Shown piece by piece: positions 32,745 to 44,040 of a stretch of DNA of 64,000 nt. Numbering within the stretch: the stretch's first letter is position 1; each line of letters opens with the position of its first letter. A model generated the notes under the pieces. That model made no database searches and was not told the DNA's origin. It saw nothing but the letters and a program-made list of their open reading frames with translations. Origin of the DNA: Dehalococcoidia bacterium (lineage in GTDB: Bacteria; Chloroflexota; Dehalococcoidia; SpSt-223); the NCBI GenBank assembly GCA_025054935.1, contig JANWZD010000004.1, positions 62,001 through 126,000 on the forward strand, given 5' to 3'. A program made the translations under genes and the position numbers.

Positions 32745-33124
32745 CGAATTCTGCCCCCTGGATCGCGATCGTCTTTTTCGCGCTCTCGCCTCCGGTGGGA
32801 CGGGCGGCTGCGCACGGGGGCGCGCTGCCGGCGGGGACCTCCTCTCCTCGCTGCCGTCTTGGCTTGCGGGAGGTGCCGGTCATTGGGTTCGGATCATCTT
32901 CGGTCGCGGGGCGCCCTCAGCGCCGGAAGCGGCGTCTTGAGCATGGGCGCAGGACCGCGCCGCGAGGAGAGCGCCCCGCAGAGAGGGGCAAAACGCCCGG
33001 CGCAGGAGACGCCGAGGACCCAGATGACCGCTGCCCCGCAAGCGCCCGAGTGCGCCGGCAGCCGTTGGCGGGGCGGGAGGGAACGACACGGCCGTGCGGC
33101 GGCGGGCGCGCCCCGCGCGCTCCC

Positions 33125-33130
33125 TATACT
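33125..33130 (+). promoter_or_regulatory. -10 box of the CPBP protein
   Basis: TATACT, 15 bases before GTG 33146, so the leader would be only about 8 bases. Confidence 0.5.
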
Positions 33131-33145
33131 TTTGCTTGATCGCCC

Positions 33146-36100
33146 GTGAACCTGCGCTCTGCTCGCCGCCTGCCCTTCTTCGTCGACCGCTGGCTGCTGG
33201 TGATGGCAGTGCTCGGCATCGCCGGGGTTGGCATTGTCCTCCTCTTCCGCGACCGCGGGGTGCCGATCGCGGCGATCGAGTTTCGGGTCCTTCAGCCCGG
33301 CGCGGAGGCGACCGCGCGCGCCTTTCTCGAAGCCCGAGGAGTCGACCTGCGCGACTTCCGAGCATCCGTTTCGTTCGAAACCGACCGCGACGCCCAAGGC
33401 TATCTCGAGCGAGTAGCGGGGCAACGCGCGCTCGATCGCATCGCGGCGGCCGAGGCGACTATCTGGCGCTGGCGGGTGCGGTTCTTCCGCGAACTCGATC
33501 CTCTCGAATATCTCGTCTCGGTCCGGCCCGACGGCGCCGTTGTGGGGTGGGCGCGCGTGCTGCCCGAAGCGGCTGCCGCTCCCTCGCTCGATGAAGAGGC
33601 GGCGCGCACCCTCGCCGAGACGGCGCTTCAGAGCGCGGGGCGAACTCTTGCCGGCTGGTCGCTCGTTGGCGCTGCGCGCGAAACCCGCCCCAACCGGGTG
33701 GATTATCGGTTCACGTGGGAGCGCGACGATTGGCAGGTGGGCGACGCCCGGCTCCGGCAGACAGTTCTCGTTCAGGGCGACACCGTCGGCGGCTGGTTCG
33801 ACTTCGTTCGAACCCCCGAGAGCTGGGTGCGCGCTCTTCGGATCGAGACGAACCGCGGGGTAGTGCTCGCCAATATTGGCTGGACCCTGACCTACGCGAT
33901 CGGGCTGGCGGCGGCGACAGTCTTCCTCGCAGAGTGGCGGGCGGGGCGGACGCGCCGGGGCGTTCCTCTCGCGCTGATGGGGGGCTTCCTCATTGTCGGG
34001 CTGGCGGCGCTCTTCAACCAGCTGCCGCTCTGGGTAGCGAGCGCGCCGACGACGATGACGGTCGGGGCCTACGTGCTCGCCCAGCTTCGCGATCAGCTCG
34101 GCCAGCTAGTTCCCTCTCTCGCTGTGGTGGGGATGGCCGCGGCCGCGGGGTTGGCGCTCTGGCCGCGCGCGTTTCCTCAGCTGCCGCACCCTCTCGCGGA
34201 CCTGACCCCGGCCGGCTGGCGGACGCGCCGTTTTGTCACCGCCGTTCTCTTCGGCTATCTCGCGGCCGGCGCGTGGCTCGGCTACTTCACCGTGTACTAC
34301 TGGCTCGGCTCGGCGTTCTTTGGGGTCTGGTCGCCGGTTGAGCTGCCGTATCGCGATGTCATGAGCGGTGCTTTCCCTCCCGCCTTTCCCCTCGTTGTCG
34401 GCGCGGCGGCGGCGATCGCCGAGGAGACGGTTTTCCGGCTCTTCGCGATCCCGGCGGGGACACTTGCGCTCGCGTGGCTCTGGAAGCGCGGCACTGGCCG
34501 CTCCCCCCGCCGGCGCGCCCAGGCGCTCCTCGTTGGGATCGTGATTGTTGTCGCCGCGCTTGTCTGGGGCAGTCTGCATTCGACCTATCCCCAGCTGCCG
34601 TTCTATGTCCGCGCGGTCGAAGTCGCTGTCATCGGGGTGCTTGCCGGCGTGGTGCTGCTGCGGTGGGGGCTCGTCGCCACCCTGACGACCCATTACGTCG
34701 GCAATACGAGCGTCGTGGGGGTGCTGTTCCTGCTTTCCGGCAATCCTGCCCTGCAGGCGGGGGCGATAGTGGTCATCGCCTTGCCGCTGCTTTCGCTCGT
34801 GCCAGCAGCCCTCGCGCTCTTGAGGGGCTCGGCGCTGCCAGACCTGCCTCCGCAGCCGACGCTCGCGCCAGTCTCGCCGCCGACCGCTCCCTCTCGCTCC
34901 GTGCCATCCCTGCGGCCGTGGCCGGCGTGGACCCTTGTTGTGGCGGTCGCGGCGCTCGGGGCCGTCGCTGTTTTTGCGCCGCCGCGTCCTCACGATGCGC
35001 TGCGGATGGCGACGACCCGCGAAGAAGCAGTTCTCGCCGCTGCGCAGGCGCTTCGCCAGATCGGCGCGCCGGTCGATTTCCCCCTGGTGGTAGCGGAGGT
35101 GGTCGACCGGTCAGGGGGGGCCGAGGCGACGTTCCTGCTGCGGACCCTCGGACCGGCCGAGACCGCGCGCTTCTATGAAACGACGCTGCCGCCGGCGGTC
35201 TGGAATGTCCGCTTTGTGCGTCCCCTGCAAAAGGAGGAGGCGGCCGTCCAGATCGGGCCCTCGGGCACGCTCGCGGGAGTGGCCCGTCAGGTGGAAGAGA
35301 CGGCGCCGGGCGCGGCGCCGACCCTGGCGGACGCGCGCGCGGTCGCCGAACGATGGCTGCAAGAGCTGACCGGCCGGAGCGCGTGGTCCTTAGTCTCGGC
35401 CTCGCAGACGCGGCGCGACCAGCGCGTCGACAGTGTTTTTGTCTGGGAGCGCGCCGATTGGTCGGCCGGTCCCGCCGAGGCAGCGGCGACCCTGCGCGTC
35501 CAGATCGTCCTCTATGGGAATGAGCTTGGGCTCTATCAGCCGTTTCTCAAGCTGCCGGAAGAGTTTGTGCGCGCCTTGCGGCGCGACACCGGGGTCGAGG
35601 GCGCCGTGCGGACCGCGCGCGACCTCGCGCTGCTCGGCGTCGGGGTGGTGGTGGTGGTCTTCTTTGTCCGGTCGCTTCGGCGCAGTGAGACCGATGTCAT
35701 GCTTGGAGGGAAGCTGGCCGCTTTCGTGGGGCTGGCGCTGCTCGTCTCTCTGATCGCCGATCTCCCGCGAGCGCTGGCCTCTTATAGTTCAACGCTCGAT
35801 CTGCCTGGCTTTGCGCTCTGGCGCCTCAGCAGCCAGGTTCGGGAGAGCCTCCTGGTCCTCGGGGCGGTAGTCGCCTTGGGCATGCTCGTGCCGGTGCTGC
35901 TGCGTCAGCAAGGCCAGCAGGTTGCCCCCCCGACCGGGCGCGAGGTGGCGCTCGGCCTGCTCGGCGCGCTCGGGGTCGTTGCTGCTGCGGCCGCCGGCTG
36001 GGCGCTCCACGCGTGGCTGGCGCCGGCGACCCTCCGCGCCCCGGCAGGGCTGCCCCCGTTCGATGGAGCGCTTCCCGCTGCGCTCGCGGCGAGTCTTGCC

Positions 36101-36514
36101 GTTCAGCGCGCGGTCGTCGGAGGAACGGTCGCGGCGGTCGTGCTGCTGATCGTCGGTCGCCTGCCGGCTCGAGGCCAACTGGCGGCTGCGGCGGCGCTCG
36201 GCGGGCTTGTCGGCGCCGCGGACCGGGTAGGCCCGGAAGCGGCGGTCGGCGGAGTGCTGGGTGCGGGGGGCGCCCTGCTCTTCCTGCTCTTCGGCCGCGT
36301 TGCCGGACCATCCCTTTGGGCGCCGATGATCGCGCTGGGAGGCGCCGCTCTGGTGAGCGAGGGCGTCGGCCTCCTGCGCTACAGCGCTGCCGGCTGGTAT
36401 CTCAGCAACGGGGTTGTCCTCCTCGCCCTCATCCCCCTGCTGGCCGCGGGACTGCTCAGGCGGCGCTTCCGCGCTCGGCGGGTGGCGCCGCCGGCGTCCG
36501 GGACCGCGCAATAA
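33146..36514 (+). CDS. Giant CPBP-family (CaaX protease-like) membrane protein with internal duplication
   Basis: A protein of 1122 residues from GTG 33146. After a signal-anchor helix (~17-34) comes an extracytoplasmic domain (~40-245, including DYRFTWERDDWQVGD), then a membrane block with the CPBP motifs: AEETVFR (~425-431), GSLHSTYPQLPFY (~472-485) and THYVGN (~514-519). A second extracytoplasmic domain (~640-840, with SVFVWERADWSAGP) clearly repeats the first, followed by another membrane block (~850-1110) that has lost the protease motifs. CPBP proteins cleave or sense membrane substrates; this length is several times the usual ~250 residues. It stands alone. Confidence 0.85.
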   Translation: MNLRSARRLPFFVDRWLLVMAVLGIAGVGIVLLFRDRGVPIAAIEFRVLQPGAEATARAFLEARGVDLRDFRASVSFETDRDAQGYLERVAGQRALDRIAAAEATIWRWRVRFFRELDPLEYLVSVRPDGAVVGWARVLPEAAAAPSLDEEAARTLAETALQSAGRTLAGWSLVGAARETRPNRVDYRFTWERDDWQVGDARLRQTVLVQGDTVGGWFDFVRTPESWVRALRIETNRGVVLANIGWTLTYAIGLAAATVFLAEWRAGRTRRGVPLALMGGFLIVGLAALFNQLPLWVASAPTTMTVGAYVLAQLRDQLGQLVPSLAVVGMAAAAGLALWPRAFPQLPHPLADLTPAGWRTRRFVTAVLFGYLAAGAWLGYFTVYYWLGSAFFGVWSPVELPYRDVMSGAFPPAFPLVVGAAAAIAEETVFRLFAIPAGTLALAWLWKRGTGRSPRRRAQALLVGIVIVVAALVWGSLHSTYPQLPFYVRAVEVAVIGVLAGVVLLRWGLVATLTTHYVGNTSVVGVLFLLSGNPALQAGAIVVIALPLLSLVPAALALLRGSALPDLPPQPTLAPVSPPTAPSRSVPSLRPWPAWTLVVAVAALGAVAVFAPPRPHDALRMATTREEAVLAAAQALRQIGAPVDFPLVVAEVVDRSGGAEATFLLRTLGPAETARFYETTLPPAVWNVRFVRPLQKEEAAVQIGPSGTLAGVARQVEETAPGAAPTLADARAVAERWLQELTGRSAWSLVSASQTRRDQRVDSVFVWERADWSAGPAEAAATLRVQIVLYGNELGLYQPFLKLPEEFVRALRRDTGVEGAVRTARDLALLGVGVVVVVFFVRSLRRSETDVMLGGKLAAFVGLALLVSLIADLPRALASYSSTLDLPGFALWRLSSQVRESLLVLGAVVALGMLVPVLLRQQGQQVAPPTGREVALGLLGALGVVAAAAAGWALHAWLAPATLRAPAGLPPFDGALPAALAASLAVQRAVVGGTVAAVVLLIVGRLPARGQLAAAAALGGLVGAADRVGPEAAVGGVLGAGGALLFLLFGRVAGPSLWAPMIALGGAALVSEGVGLLRYSAAGWYLSNGVVLLALIPLLAAGLLRRRFRARRVAPPASGTAQ

Positions 36515-36535
36515 AAAAAGGCCGGCACTGCCGGC
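36513..36535 (-). terminator. Intrinsic terminator of the minus-strand unit
   Basis: On the minus strand, stem GGCCGGCA/TGCCGGCC with a single-base loop is followed by seven U residues. It ends the transcript carrying the racemase-fold gene and the small gene, right at the stop codon of the convergent CPBP gene. Confidence 0.8.
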
Positions 36536-36544
36536 CCATGGCTC

Positions 36545-36683: not shown

Positions 36684-37541
36684 TCAAGCAGCTCCAGCCG
36701 AACCTTCCGCCTGCGCCCGATCGGCTTGGCGCAGACCGAACATCTCGCGAACGCGGGCGAGCGTTTCTTTGCTGGGTCCGGCGTATGCTCCCGCACGGCT
36801 GCGAACGATCCCGAACGCGCGGTGGAGATCGACGAGCGCTTCGATCAGCTTGATTGCGCTCGCCATGAGGTCGACCACGGGCGCGCCGGTGCCGGGGATC
36901 TCGAATAGGTTCGCGCCGGAGACTGCCATGGAGAGCACGGTGTCGCCGGCGATGATCACCTCGGCGCCCTGATCGATCAGCTGGCGCGAACGCTGCTCAA
37001 AGCGGGTGAGGATCTCATCGTGCCGGCGCTCGGCGAGGTCGGCGAGATAGCGCTGTTGCGGCATATCGATCGGCAGCATGCCGACGCAGCGGTCGAGCAC
37101 GCCATAGCGGGCGAGCAAATGACGGCGGTGACGGTAGCGCTTCGCAAGCGGGACCCCCTCGTCGAAAGCGTTCGTCACGATGCCGAAACGCTCTCCCCAG
37201 ATCGTGGCGAAATGCGTCGCAGCTTCCATCAGGCCGACAACGGGAATGTCGAGGATCTCCTTCGCCTCGTGGAGGCCCGGGTCGCTGCTCATCCCGATGA
37301 TCACGCCGTCGTAGCCCGCCTCGCCGGCACCGGCGACCGTCTCCACGATCTCGCGGTCGGAGATGGTGCGGACATAGTCGGTCCACCAGTCGCTCCAATT
37401 TGTGATCCCCCGCGCGGTGGGGACGATCGTCACATCCGTGTCTGGCCGTCGGACGCGATCGAGAATGGCCATCACGCTGCCGAAGACTACCCCCTCGCGA
37501 AACGGGCTGACGGGACCGGGATACTGGTACCAAATGCGCAC
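36684..37541 (-). CDS. Asp/Glu/hydantoin racemase-fold protein lacking the catalytic cysteines
   Basis: A protein of 285 residues from GTG 37541 (AAGGAGG upstream). The two-domain racemase fold is plain: YDGVIIGMSSDPGL aligns with the first Cys motif of hydantoin racemase (ACFDDPGL), and GAEVIIAGDTVLSMAV with the second (GCxGL). Both cysteines are replaced, by Met84 and Asp200. The superfamily also includes arylmalonate decarboxylase and maleate isomerase, which keep at least one. So it is either inactive in the usual sense, or a different lyase or a binding protein. GEAAxH is MEAATHF here. Followed by the small gene at 36559. Confidence 0.83.
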   Translation of the reverse strand: MRIWYQYPGPVSPFREGVVFGSVMAILDRVRRPDTDVTIVPTARGITNWSDWWTDYVRTISDREIVETVAGAGEAGYDGVIIGMSSDPGLHEAKEILDIPVVGLMEAATHFATIWGERFGIVTNAFDEGVPLAKRYRHRRHLLARYGVLDRCVGMLPIDMPQQRYLADLAERRHDEILTRFEQRSRQLIDQGAEVIIAGDTVLSMAVSGANLFEIPGTGAPVVDLMASAIKLIEALVDLHRAFGIVRSRAGAYAGPSKETLARVREMFGLRQADRAQAEGSAGAA

Positions 37542-41730: not shown

Positions 41731-42635
41731 TGCGCGAGGACGCCGAAGCGCGTCAGGACGCTTCTTGCCCGCGCCACGTCCTCCGGCGGGTTGCGCCGGT
41801 CGAACTCGCAGACGCGCAGCGCGTGAGGGGGCAGGTGGGCGGCAACCAGCGACCACTCCATCTCGCCGGTGCCGATGGCGAAATGATCGCGGGTGCCGCG
41901 CAGTTCGTGCAGGTGCACGCCGATGATCCGCGGGCCAAGCGTTTCGAGCCAAGCGCGCTGCGTGCCAAACCCCAGCAGTTCCTGCCCGGCAGCGTGGCCG
42001 ACGTCGTGCCAGTAACCGACCGGCCCCTCCTGCCCTGCCTCGAGGAGCAGCAGCATCTCCTCGAGGTTCGGGATCTCAAAGACGTTGTAGCGGGTCTCGA
42101 GCCCGATCGAGACGCCCCGCGCCGCAGCATAAGGAGCGATTTCGCGGATGCTGCGGAGCGACTGCTCGAGGTAGGGGCCGGCATTTGCGGCGCGCTCCGC
42201 CGCGAGGGCATCGCGTAGCGTCCAAAACTCATCGCTGCCCCGCTCGCCCGCCGCAACCAGTTCGCGGAGCCGCGCCTGCTTCGTGCTGTCGACTGGGATC
42301 GTTGCGACGTGGACGACAACCGCTTCCGCGCCGAGGCGAGCAGCGAAGTCGATCGTCGCTTTCGTCAGCCGGACCGCGGCGCGGCGCTCCTCCTCGTCTG
42401 TCGCTCCAAGCGACAGCTCATAGCTCCAGCGTCCATCGTCCGTCTGGCGCGCCGGGCAGGGGTTGTGGACGCTGCGCAGAGGCGGGCCGTCTCCCGGCTC
42501 TGCGATCCAGCTGGGGGGCGCCTCATAGTTGAATTCAACAGCGTCGAACCCCAGCTCTGCGGCGGCGCGCCGAAACGCGGCAGCAGTCGCAAAGCGCCCA
42601 ACCGCCCACATGCTCGAAAGCGCAAGGCAGGTCAC
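41727..42635 (-). CDS. Sugar phosphate isomerase/epimerase-type TIM barrel
   Basis: A protein of 302 residues from GTG 42635. AP-endonuclease-2-like TIM barrel: VVVHVATIP, the metal Glu in [20 protein letters not shown], and [23 protein letters not shown]. These residues bind a divalent metal. Probably an isomerase or epimerase of a sugar or cyclitol. Its start overlaps the last base of the rseP stop, so the pair is likely co-transcribed. Converges on the carboxyltransferase with a 4-base overlap. Confidence 0.8.
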
Positions 42636-43951
42636 TAGCGCAAGAGGCTCTCGCCGCTCACCAAGCGGACGACGTCGTTGAAGGTGATGGCGATGATGAG
42701 GGTAAACAGGAACACTGCGCCGATCAGATGGGCAAACCGCTCCTTATCGGGGGAGATCCGCTTGCCGCCGCGCACCGCTTCGAGAAGCACGAACATGATC
42801 CGCCCGCCGTCGAGCATCGGGATCGGCAGCGCATTGATGATTGCGAGATTGAGGCTGAGCAGCGCCATCAAGTCGAGCAGGACGGCGGGGCCGGTGCGCG
42901 TCGCCTGCTGGGCGACTTGGCCGGTGATCTCATAGATGCCGACGGGGCCGGCAACCTGCGGGGCAGAGCGCTGCGCGATCATGCTGGTGATGTCGTTCTT
43001 GAACAGCACCAGCATCTCCCATCCGCGCTGGATCCCCGCCGGGACCGCCTCGAGCGGCGAAAGCGCCCGGGTCTGCTGGCGGAGATAACTCTCGGTCAGT
43101 TGGGTGGTGCTCACGCCGAGCGCATTCGCCACGGCAGCAAGGTACTCCTCGCGCAGCTGCCCCCCGGTCATCCCGCGCTGAGCGGCCTGCTCGCGCTCCC
43201 ACGCTGTGCGGCCGATGTTCTCCGCGCCGGCCAGTTCCCACACCTGCACGACGTCGACCGGAACGCCGACACGCTCGGCCAGCTGGGCGGTTGTCAGCCC
43301 ACGCTCGACGCGGTAGCGCCAGATCGGGTTCTCAAGGCCGATTAGGATGCCCGTTGCTCCCTCGCCGGGGGGCGGCGCAATGCGCGGCGTGACGCGAGCA
43401 AGGACCTCGCGGCCGTCGCGCCGAACGATGACATCCATCGGCTGGCCGAGATTGAGGGTAACGTTGTAGCGCAGTTCGCCAAGCCCCCGGATCGGGCGCC
43501 CATTAACGCTCACGATCACATCATCAGGGCGCAGGCCGCCGATCTCGGCGGGCGACCCAGGACGCACGCCGAGAATGACGACGTTGCCGACCGTCTCGGT
43601 TCGCGGCAGCATCGCGCTCACCGTGAACAGCACAAAGGCGAGCAGCACATTCATGACGACGCCGCCCGACAGGATCGCCAAGCGCCAGGGAATGCTCTGC
43701 GCCGCGAGGCTGCGCGGGTCACTGGGGTCCTCTTCGCCGACCATCCGCACAAAGCCGCCGAGGGGGAGGAGGTTGAGCGAATACTCCGTCTCGCCGCGGC
43801 GAATGGCAAACAGCCGCGGCGGGTAGCCGACCGCGAATTCGAGCACCCGCACGCCGGCGCGCTTGGCGGTCAGAAAATGGCCGAGCTCATGGACAACGAC
43901 CAGCACGACCAAAACGACCGCGAATGTCGCGAGATTCAGCACGATTTCCAC
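42635..43951 (-). CDS. rseP: Site-2 zinc metalloprotease RseP with an inserted helical module
   Basis: A protein of 438 residues from GTG 43951 (GGAGGT upstream; the longer frame to 43984 lacks a site). It has HELGH (~21-25) in the first membrane helix, a single PDZ domain (~130-205, PGSPAEIGGLRPDDVIVSVNG), and the final NALPIPMLDGGR motif. Cleaves anti-sigma factors or signal-peptide remnants within the membrane. Odd: between PDZ and the later helices, ~211-297, lies a polar helical insert with two repeats of HTH-like character (LTTAQLAERVGVPVDVVQVW and LREEYLAAVANALGVSTTQL), not in typical RseP. Confidence 0.9.
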   Translation of the reverse strand: MEIVLNLATFAVVLVVLVVVHELGHFLTAKRAGVRVLEFAVGYPPRLFAIRRGETEYSLNLLPLGGFVRMVGEEDPSDPRSLAAQSIPWRLAILSGGVVMNVLLAFVLFTVSAMLPRTETVGNVVILGVRPGSPAEIGGLRPDDVIVSVNGRPIRGLGELRYNVTLNLGQPMDVIVRRDGREVLARVTPRIAPPPGEGATGILIGLENPIWRYRVERGLTTAQLAERVGVPVDVVQVWELAGAENIGRTAWEREQAAQRGMTGGQLREEYLAAVANALGVSTTQLTESYLRQQTRALSPLEAVPAGIQRGWEMLVLFKNDITSMIAQRSAPQVAGPVGIYEITGQVAQQATRTGPAVLLDLMALLSLNLAIINALPIPMLDGGRIMFVLLEAVRGGKRISPDKERFAHLIGAVFLFTLIIAITFNDVVRLVSGESLLR

Positions 43952-44040
43952 TCGGGACCTCCGGACGGGGCGCTCTGCGAGCAATTGTACGTCACGTTGC
44001 CCGCTCAGCTGAGCAGAGCGCGCCGAAGTGAGCTGTTCTC

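Follow-up and report, generated by a model that had tools for sequence, protein, structure and literature searches.

A gene at positions 33146-36514 of the window (the whole 64,000-nucleotide stretch analysed) encodes a 1122-residue protein that, by sequence comparison, genuinely consists of a long-form CPBP unit duplicated in tandem, with a predicted protease in its first half and a catalytically dead copy in its second. Another 14 Chloroflexota genomes encode a full-length homologue. The open reading frame starts with GTG, lies on the forward strand, as do all its features given below, and belongs to a contig of a 3.57 Mb genome; its bounds and length are exactly those claimed in an earlier, sequence-only reading. 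The architecture is well supported; that half 2 regulates half 1 is our inference. On balance we favour a single-chain protease-pseudoprotease pair in which the dead half gates the live half.

The internal duplication proposed in the sequence-only reading was confirmed by direct comparison of the halves. Residues 1-600 and 601-1122 align with 111 bits (blastp, E=3e-30, 30% identity), phmmer matched half 1 to half 2 with E=1.8e-22, and profile-profile comparison of the halves from 5 species gave a probability of 100 and E=4.1e-44. Each half consists of one transmembrane segment (TM), an extracytoplasmic domain of about 200 residues and approximately nine further TM. In half 1, TM1 (residues 16-38, 33191..33259, assigned by hydropathy) is followed by extracytoplasmic domain 1 (residues 39-237, 33260..33856), by TM2-5 (residues 238-404, 33857..34357, assigned by hydropathy, positive loops and homology to half 2) and by a CPBP/Rce1-like catalytic core (residues 405-560, 34358..34825). 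A variable, positively charged linker, predicted to be cytoplasmic (residues 561-592, 34826..34921), connects the halves; its identity to relatives is low (58/32/24/17%), and the loop 557-594 carries on average 4.9 K/R vs 1.4 D/E. Half 2 comprises its own TM1 (residues 593-614, 34922..34987, hydropathy), extracytoplasmic domain 2 (residues 615-815, 34988..35590, recognized by homology to domain 1 and shared invariant residues), TM2-5 (residues 816-958, 35591..36019, homologous to TM2-5 of half 1) and a degenerate core (residues 959-1105, 36020..36460). The two extracytoplasmic domains described previously are thus both present, although the second spans about 615-815 instead of 640-840 and the first about 39-237. 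Each is followed, as had been described, by a membrane block, which we find to have about nine TM, and the additional TM at 593-614 precedes the second domain.

Comparison of separate segments located the similarity. Domain 1 matched domain 2 with E=2.7e-49 (segment profile comparison) and TM2-5 of half 1 matched TM2-5 of half 2 with E=1.5e-13 (hhalign); on these alignments the extracytoplasmic domain and the first four TM of half 2 are clearly homologous to their counterparts in half 1, and the possibility that the second membrane block is unrelated to the first is excluded for these four TM. Hydropathy averaged over eight relatives indicated about nine TM after the extracytoplasmic domain in both halves, with alternating K/R-rich loops, and both domains are therefore predicted to lie outside and the linker and C-terminus inside. 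Structure models of the halves, for which the alignment input consisted of the window and L006 sequences only, were poor in their membrane parts (mean pLDDT 46 and 52, with values under 50 for that of half 2).

The core of half 1 matched PF02517, the Rce1-like family of Pfam, over residues 413-521 with 27.3 bits at a cut-off of 22.4. It contains motif 1, EExxxR (E426, E427 and R431; 34421..34438), motif 2, W474xxxH478 within WGSLHSTYPQ (34565..34579), and motif 3, H516xxxN520 (34691..34705), and all seven residues are invariant in 15/15 tandem proteins. Of these, EExxxR and HxxxN correspond to the catalytic motifs reported for MmRce1 and the myxosortase MrtX (PMC11980579). No residue expected of a glutamic intramembrane endopeptidase is missing from half 1, which is predicted to be a protease, apparently an active one.

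Relatives outside the phylum were sought by tblastn of the relatives' half 1 against plasmids, and this search brought up three informative proteins. SkfC (500 aa), encoded in an skf operon, and a Paenibacillus protein (542 aa) belong to Bacillota and are single-copy CPBP proteins. They matched the half 1 profile with E=8.7e-15 and E=1.2e-16, respectively, the homology covering profile positions 60-513 in SkfC and starting at position 183 in the Paenibacillus protein, and hardly matched the half 2 profile. Since this layout also occurs in CPBP proteins that have a single copy and 500-542 aa, half 1 can be assigned to the long-form CPBP proteases. The length of about 250 residues against which the protein had originally been measured is therefore not the appropriate reference, the duplicated unit corresponding to the known, SkfC-like long form of about 500-540 residues. 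The single-copy homologues whose search had been proposed were thus found outside the phylum; within the phylum sample no clear case of a single-copy version was seen. In the literature, skfC is listed as a putative protease or maturation gene (PMC8172795, PMC13343845).

Only the first membrane block keeps the protease motifs, as the sequence-only reading had noted: in the window protein EExxxR, WxxxH and HxxxN occur in the first half only, EExxxR and [FW]xxxH are absent from 15/15 second cores, and PF02517 matched none of the 5 second halves tested and none of the further second halves scanned. The descent of half 2 from a CPBP unit is seen in the homology of its domain and TM2-5 and in the alignment anchored on the latter. 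For the last membrane block we considered whether an unrelated domain replaced the CPBP core, since direct core-to-core comparison was no better than shuffles (score 14.6 vs a mean of 12.5; 13/100 shuffles as high). When anchored on TM2-5, however, the alignment extended past TM5, ended just before the EE motif and scored 107.1; the highest score among 100 shuffles of the part that follows was 89.5. Together with the equal TM number and charge pattern of the halves and a protein linking the N and C cores, this makes replacement improbable in our view.

The linking protein, the third of the outside relatives, comes from Gemmatirosa kalamazoonensis (868 aa, L078:3681-6287, plasmid 2, NZ_CP007130.1) and is the only kinase fusion found. 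It consists of a zinc ribbon, a Ser/Thr kinase (PF00069, E=2.2e-36) and then an extracytoplasmic domain and multi-TM block devoid of the CPBP catalytic residues. It matched the N profile with E=2.2e-13 and the C profile with E=3.7e-12 (473 columns), i.e. over most of the profile length, and its last block beat 200/200 shuffles against both the N core and the C core. In a rough tree the Gemmatirosa unit grouped next to the C halves, on a long branch and weakly supported (80/62). This protein is the main bridge between the cores and makes a dead CPBP-like block a plausible state of the domain. Position, topology, the anchored alignment and the bridging protein thus support a relationship between the last block of half 2 and the CPBP core, whereas the direct comparison does not.

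The diverged core of half 2 nevertheless contains fixed positions: P970 and N1088-G1089, the latter in the last TM (36407..36412), are invariant in 15/15 tandem proteins despite the strong divergence around them. They speak for the reading that half 2 gained a new catalytic or transport function, for instance modifying or exporting a peptide cut by half 1. We consider this unlikely, as the membrane block of half 2 contains neither HExxH nor GxGD, has few conserved polar residues, and half 2 has no match to any Pfam family above threshold.

The extracytoplasmic domain of half 1 was modelled fairly confidently (pLDDT mostly 70-90) as helix-strand-helix-three strands followed by helix-four strands, and domains 1 and 2 share an invariant W, R, R-D, R, G and P. 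Sub-threshold matches to DUF4901 (YcdB/YcdC repeat, PF16244) were obtained in 9/15 tandem proteins and lay over this domain where examined; the best among the homologue halves scanned reached 25.3 bits (E=1.9e-5) at a cut-off of 27 bits, and the window protein itself gave no PF16244 match. Foldseek returned weak matches to DUF2874 (PepSY-like), BLIP-like, PsbP and DcrB structures, fold searches of the PDB returned nothing with E <0.001, and a PDB sequence search nothing relevant. From the model, the helix-strand pattern, the sub-threshold DUF4901 matches and the homology to domain 2 we read domain 1 as PepSY/YcdB-like in outline, without claiming proven membership. In the phylum sample the domain was confidently detected only in the tandem proteins.

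Including the window protein, 15 tandem proteins are known to us from this survey, the 14 homologues having lengths of 1085-1196 aa. Their genomes comprise two congeners, two of the same class, three from other families of the phylum and seven from one family with genome sizes of 6-7 Mb. A class-wide search of 393 genomes found the tandem gene only in the window's genome and four others. The protein of one congener (G002) is identical to that of the Dehalococcoidia MAG KatS3mg060, the only record retrieved by a contig scan with the single protein, and the host is accordingly taken to be a Chloroflexota member of this class. No member was found on viral contigs, and searches re-centred on G077, G219 and G137, which mostly resampled the same genomes, added no new members. 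In one of the second halves (G219, L033:2337-4199) the TM4-TM5 loop contains an AHPEPA repeat, which resembles an in-frame insertion of a repetitive palindromic DNA element.

In a tree built from the extracytoplasmic domain and TM2-5, the N halves and the C halves fell on opposite sides of one branch with support of 100/100, and the duplication is therefore older than the split of these lineages: on this phylogeny it occurred once, before they separated. The pair is fused in every genome where it was found. Half 2 has lost the protease motifs and diverges faster than half 1, as a decaying, functionless remnant would. Its full length in 15/15 proteins from several Chloroflexota families and the invariant residues in both its domains speak against decay, however, and so does selection. 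Between congeners dN/dS amounted to 0.07-0.10 for half 1, 0.16 for domain 2 and 0.33-0.35 for the half 2 membrane part, and values of 0.35-0.46 were obtained for the degenerate core (residues 959-1105); all are rough, as synonymous sites are near saturation. By this measure half 2 is under purifying selection throughout, looser than that on half 1, on which ground decay was rejected; we regard it as extremely improbable.

The tandem gene stands alone, with a citrate synthase gene upstream on the opposite strand and a convergent Asp/Glu racemase gene downstream. Directly 3' of the stop codon lies a hairpin with a T run (36519..36537, no strand assigned), which serves at least the convergent gene at 36684-37541. 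At the 5' end (33120-33148), TATACT ends about 15 bases before the GTG and a clear ribosome-binding site is absent, so that the transcript is possibly leaderless. Another intramembrane protease, of the RseP (site-2) type, is encoded 6 kb downstream in the window (42635-43984; TIGR00054 above cut-off). The genome (G000) has six PF02517 loci in total (L046-L051), the open frames of the other five comprising 274-420 aa. A search for a conserved operon or substrate gene found no gene neighbour conserved between lineages; a neighbour is shared only among the f76 genomes. In these 6-Mb genomes the tandem gene is followed after about 30 bases by a DUF4388 gene (L037:5328-6811, with the same place in five other f76 genomes) and then by a DUF3806 gene; both are possible operon partners there.

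In the favoured reading, half 1 would cleave a membrane-embedded or membrane-proximal peptide substrate. Half 2 would not cut. A peptide or envelope signal would be sensed by its extracytoplasmic domain, and packing of its membrane block against half 1 would open or close the active site or present the substrate. Such a role would resemble that of the iRhoms, which are dead relatives of rhomboids, and that of a sensor module attached to a kinase. As the pairing is kept across the phylum and the dead unit occurs on a kinase in another phylum, this unit is probably an integral sensor or regulator of the protein. The data are consistent with the earlier suggestion of a protease fused to its regulatory copy, and these same two observations strengthen it. 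The control itself we infer from the dead unit being the membrane partner of that kinase, from the higher conservation of domain 2 relative to the surrounding membrane part, and from the general behaviour of intramembrane pseudoproteases such as iRhoms, regulatory and catalytically dead relatives of an intramembrane protease (PMC6451368, PMC3149277). Domain 2 is the best conserved part of half 2 (identity to relatives 73/59/35/37%, compared with 53/44/23/21% for TM2-5 and 56/40/23/16% for the core), suggesting that it has its own function.

The main rival is that half 2 is a structural partner only, replacing the second subunit of an ancestral homodimer, so that the chain forms a heterodimer within itself, and stabilizing or positioning half 1 with no sensing role. 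The identical topology of the halves, the duplication of the unit as a whole and the faster evolution of the half 2 membrane part relative to its extracytoplasmic domain are all compatible with it. A purely structural role accounts less well for the conservation of domain 2, and the unit also occurs on a kinase with no live CPBP partner at all; we therefore judge it a rather less probable alternative to sensing and gating by half 2.

Prokaryotic CPBP proteases have been described as largely unexplored (PMC11980579). Little is known of how the bacterial enzymes are controlled. The tandem protein, in which a live and a dead copy are naturally joined and kept together phylum-wide, offers a defined system for testing pseudoprotease regulation in cis. 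The dead unit on the kinase hints that membrane domains derived from CPBP proteins have receptor roles as well, and if they do, the reading of some multi-TM domains of 'unknown' function on bacterial kinases would change. Tentatively, and with less confidence than we attach to gating within the tandem protein, the dead CPBP-like unit might be a general bacterial sensory input module, used by Ser/Thr kinases in Gemmatimonadota and in tandem with its live ancestor in Chloroflexota. The long SkfC-like form is known; what appears to be new is that a dead copy occurs in tandem with a live one and, separately, linked to a kinase. A literature search, with most subscription journals outside its coverage, turned up no paper on either arrangement.

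Among known systems, the CPBP/Rce1 proteases (PF02517; MmRce1, MrtX) share with half 1 EExxxR, the [FW]xxxH-type motif, HxxxN and a score above the Pfam cut-off, but the tandem protein is much longer and has a large extracytoplasmic domain and a fused dead second copy. SkfC and the Paenibacillus protein share the TM, extracytoplasmic region, TM block and CPBP core of half 1 and differ in being single-copy. The gene for SkfC is part of a bacteriocin operon with skfA, skfB and skfEF; the window gene is not, its neighbours being the citrate synthase and Asp/Glu racemase genes. The likeness to YcdB/YcdC and PepSY-like periplasmic domains consists of the sub-threshold DUF4901 and weak Foldseek matches, and in the papers searched no link between these domains and a CPBP protease was found. 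The iRhoms provide the working analogy for half 2, that of a dead relative that regulates, although they belong to an unrelated fold family and are separate polypeptides in eukaryotes. In the Gemmatirosa kinase, as in half 2, the whole unit lacks the protease residues, but its fusion partners there are a zinc ribbon and a protein kinase, both cytoplasmic, where half 2 has a live CPBP half.
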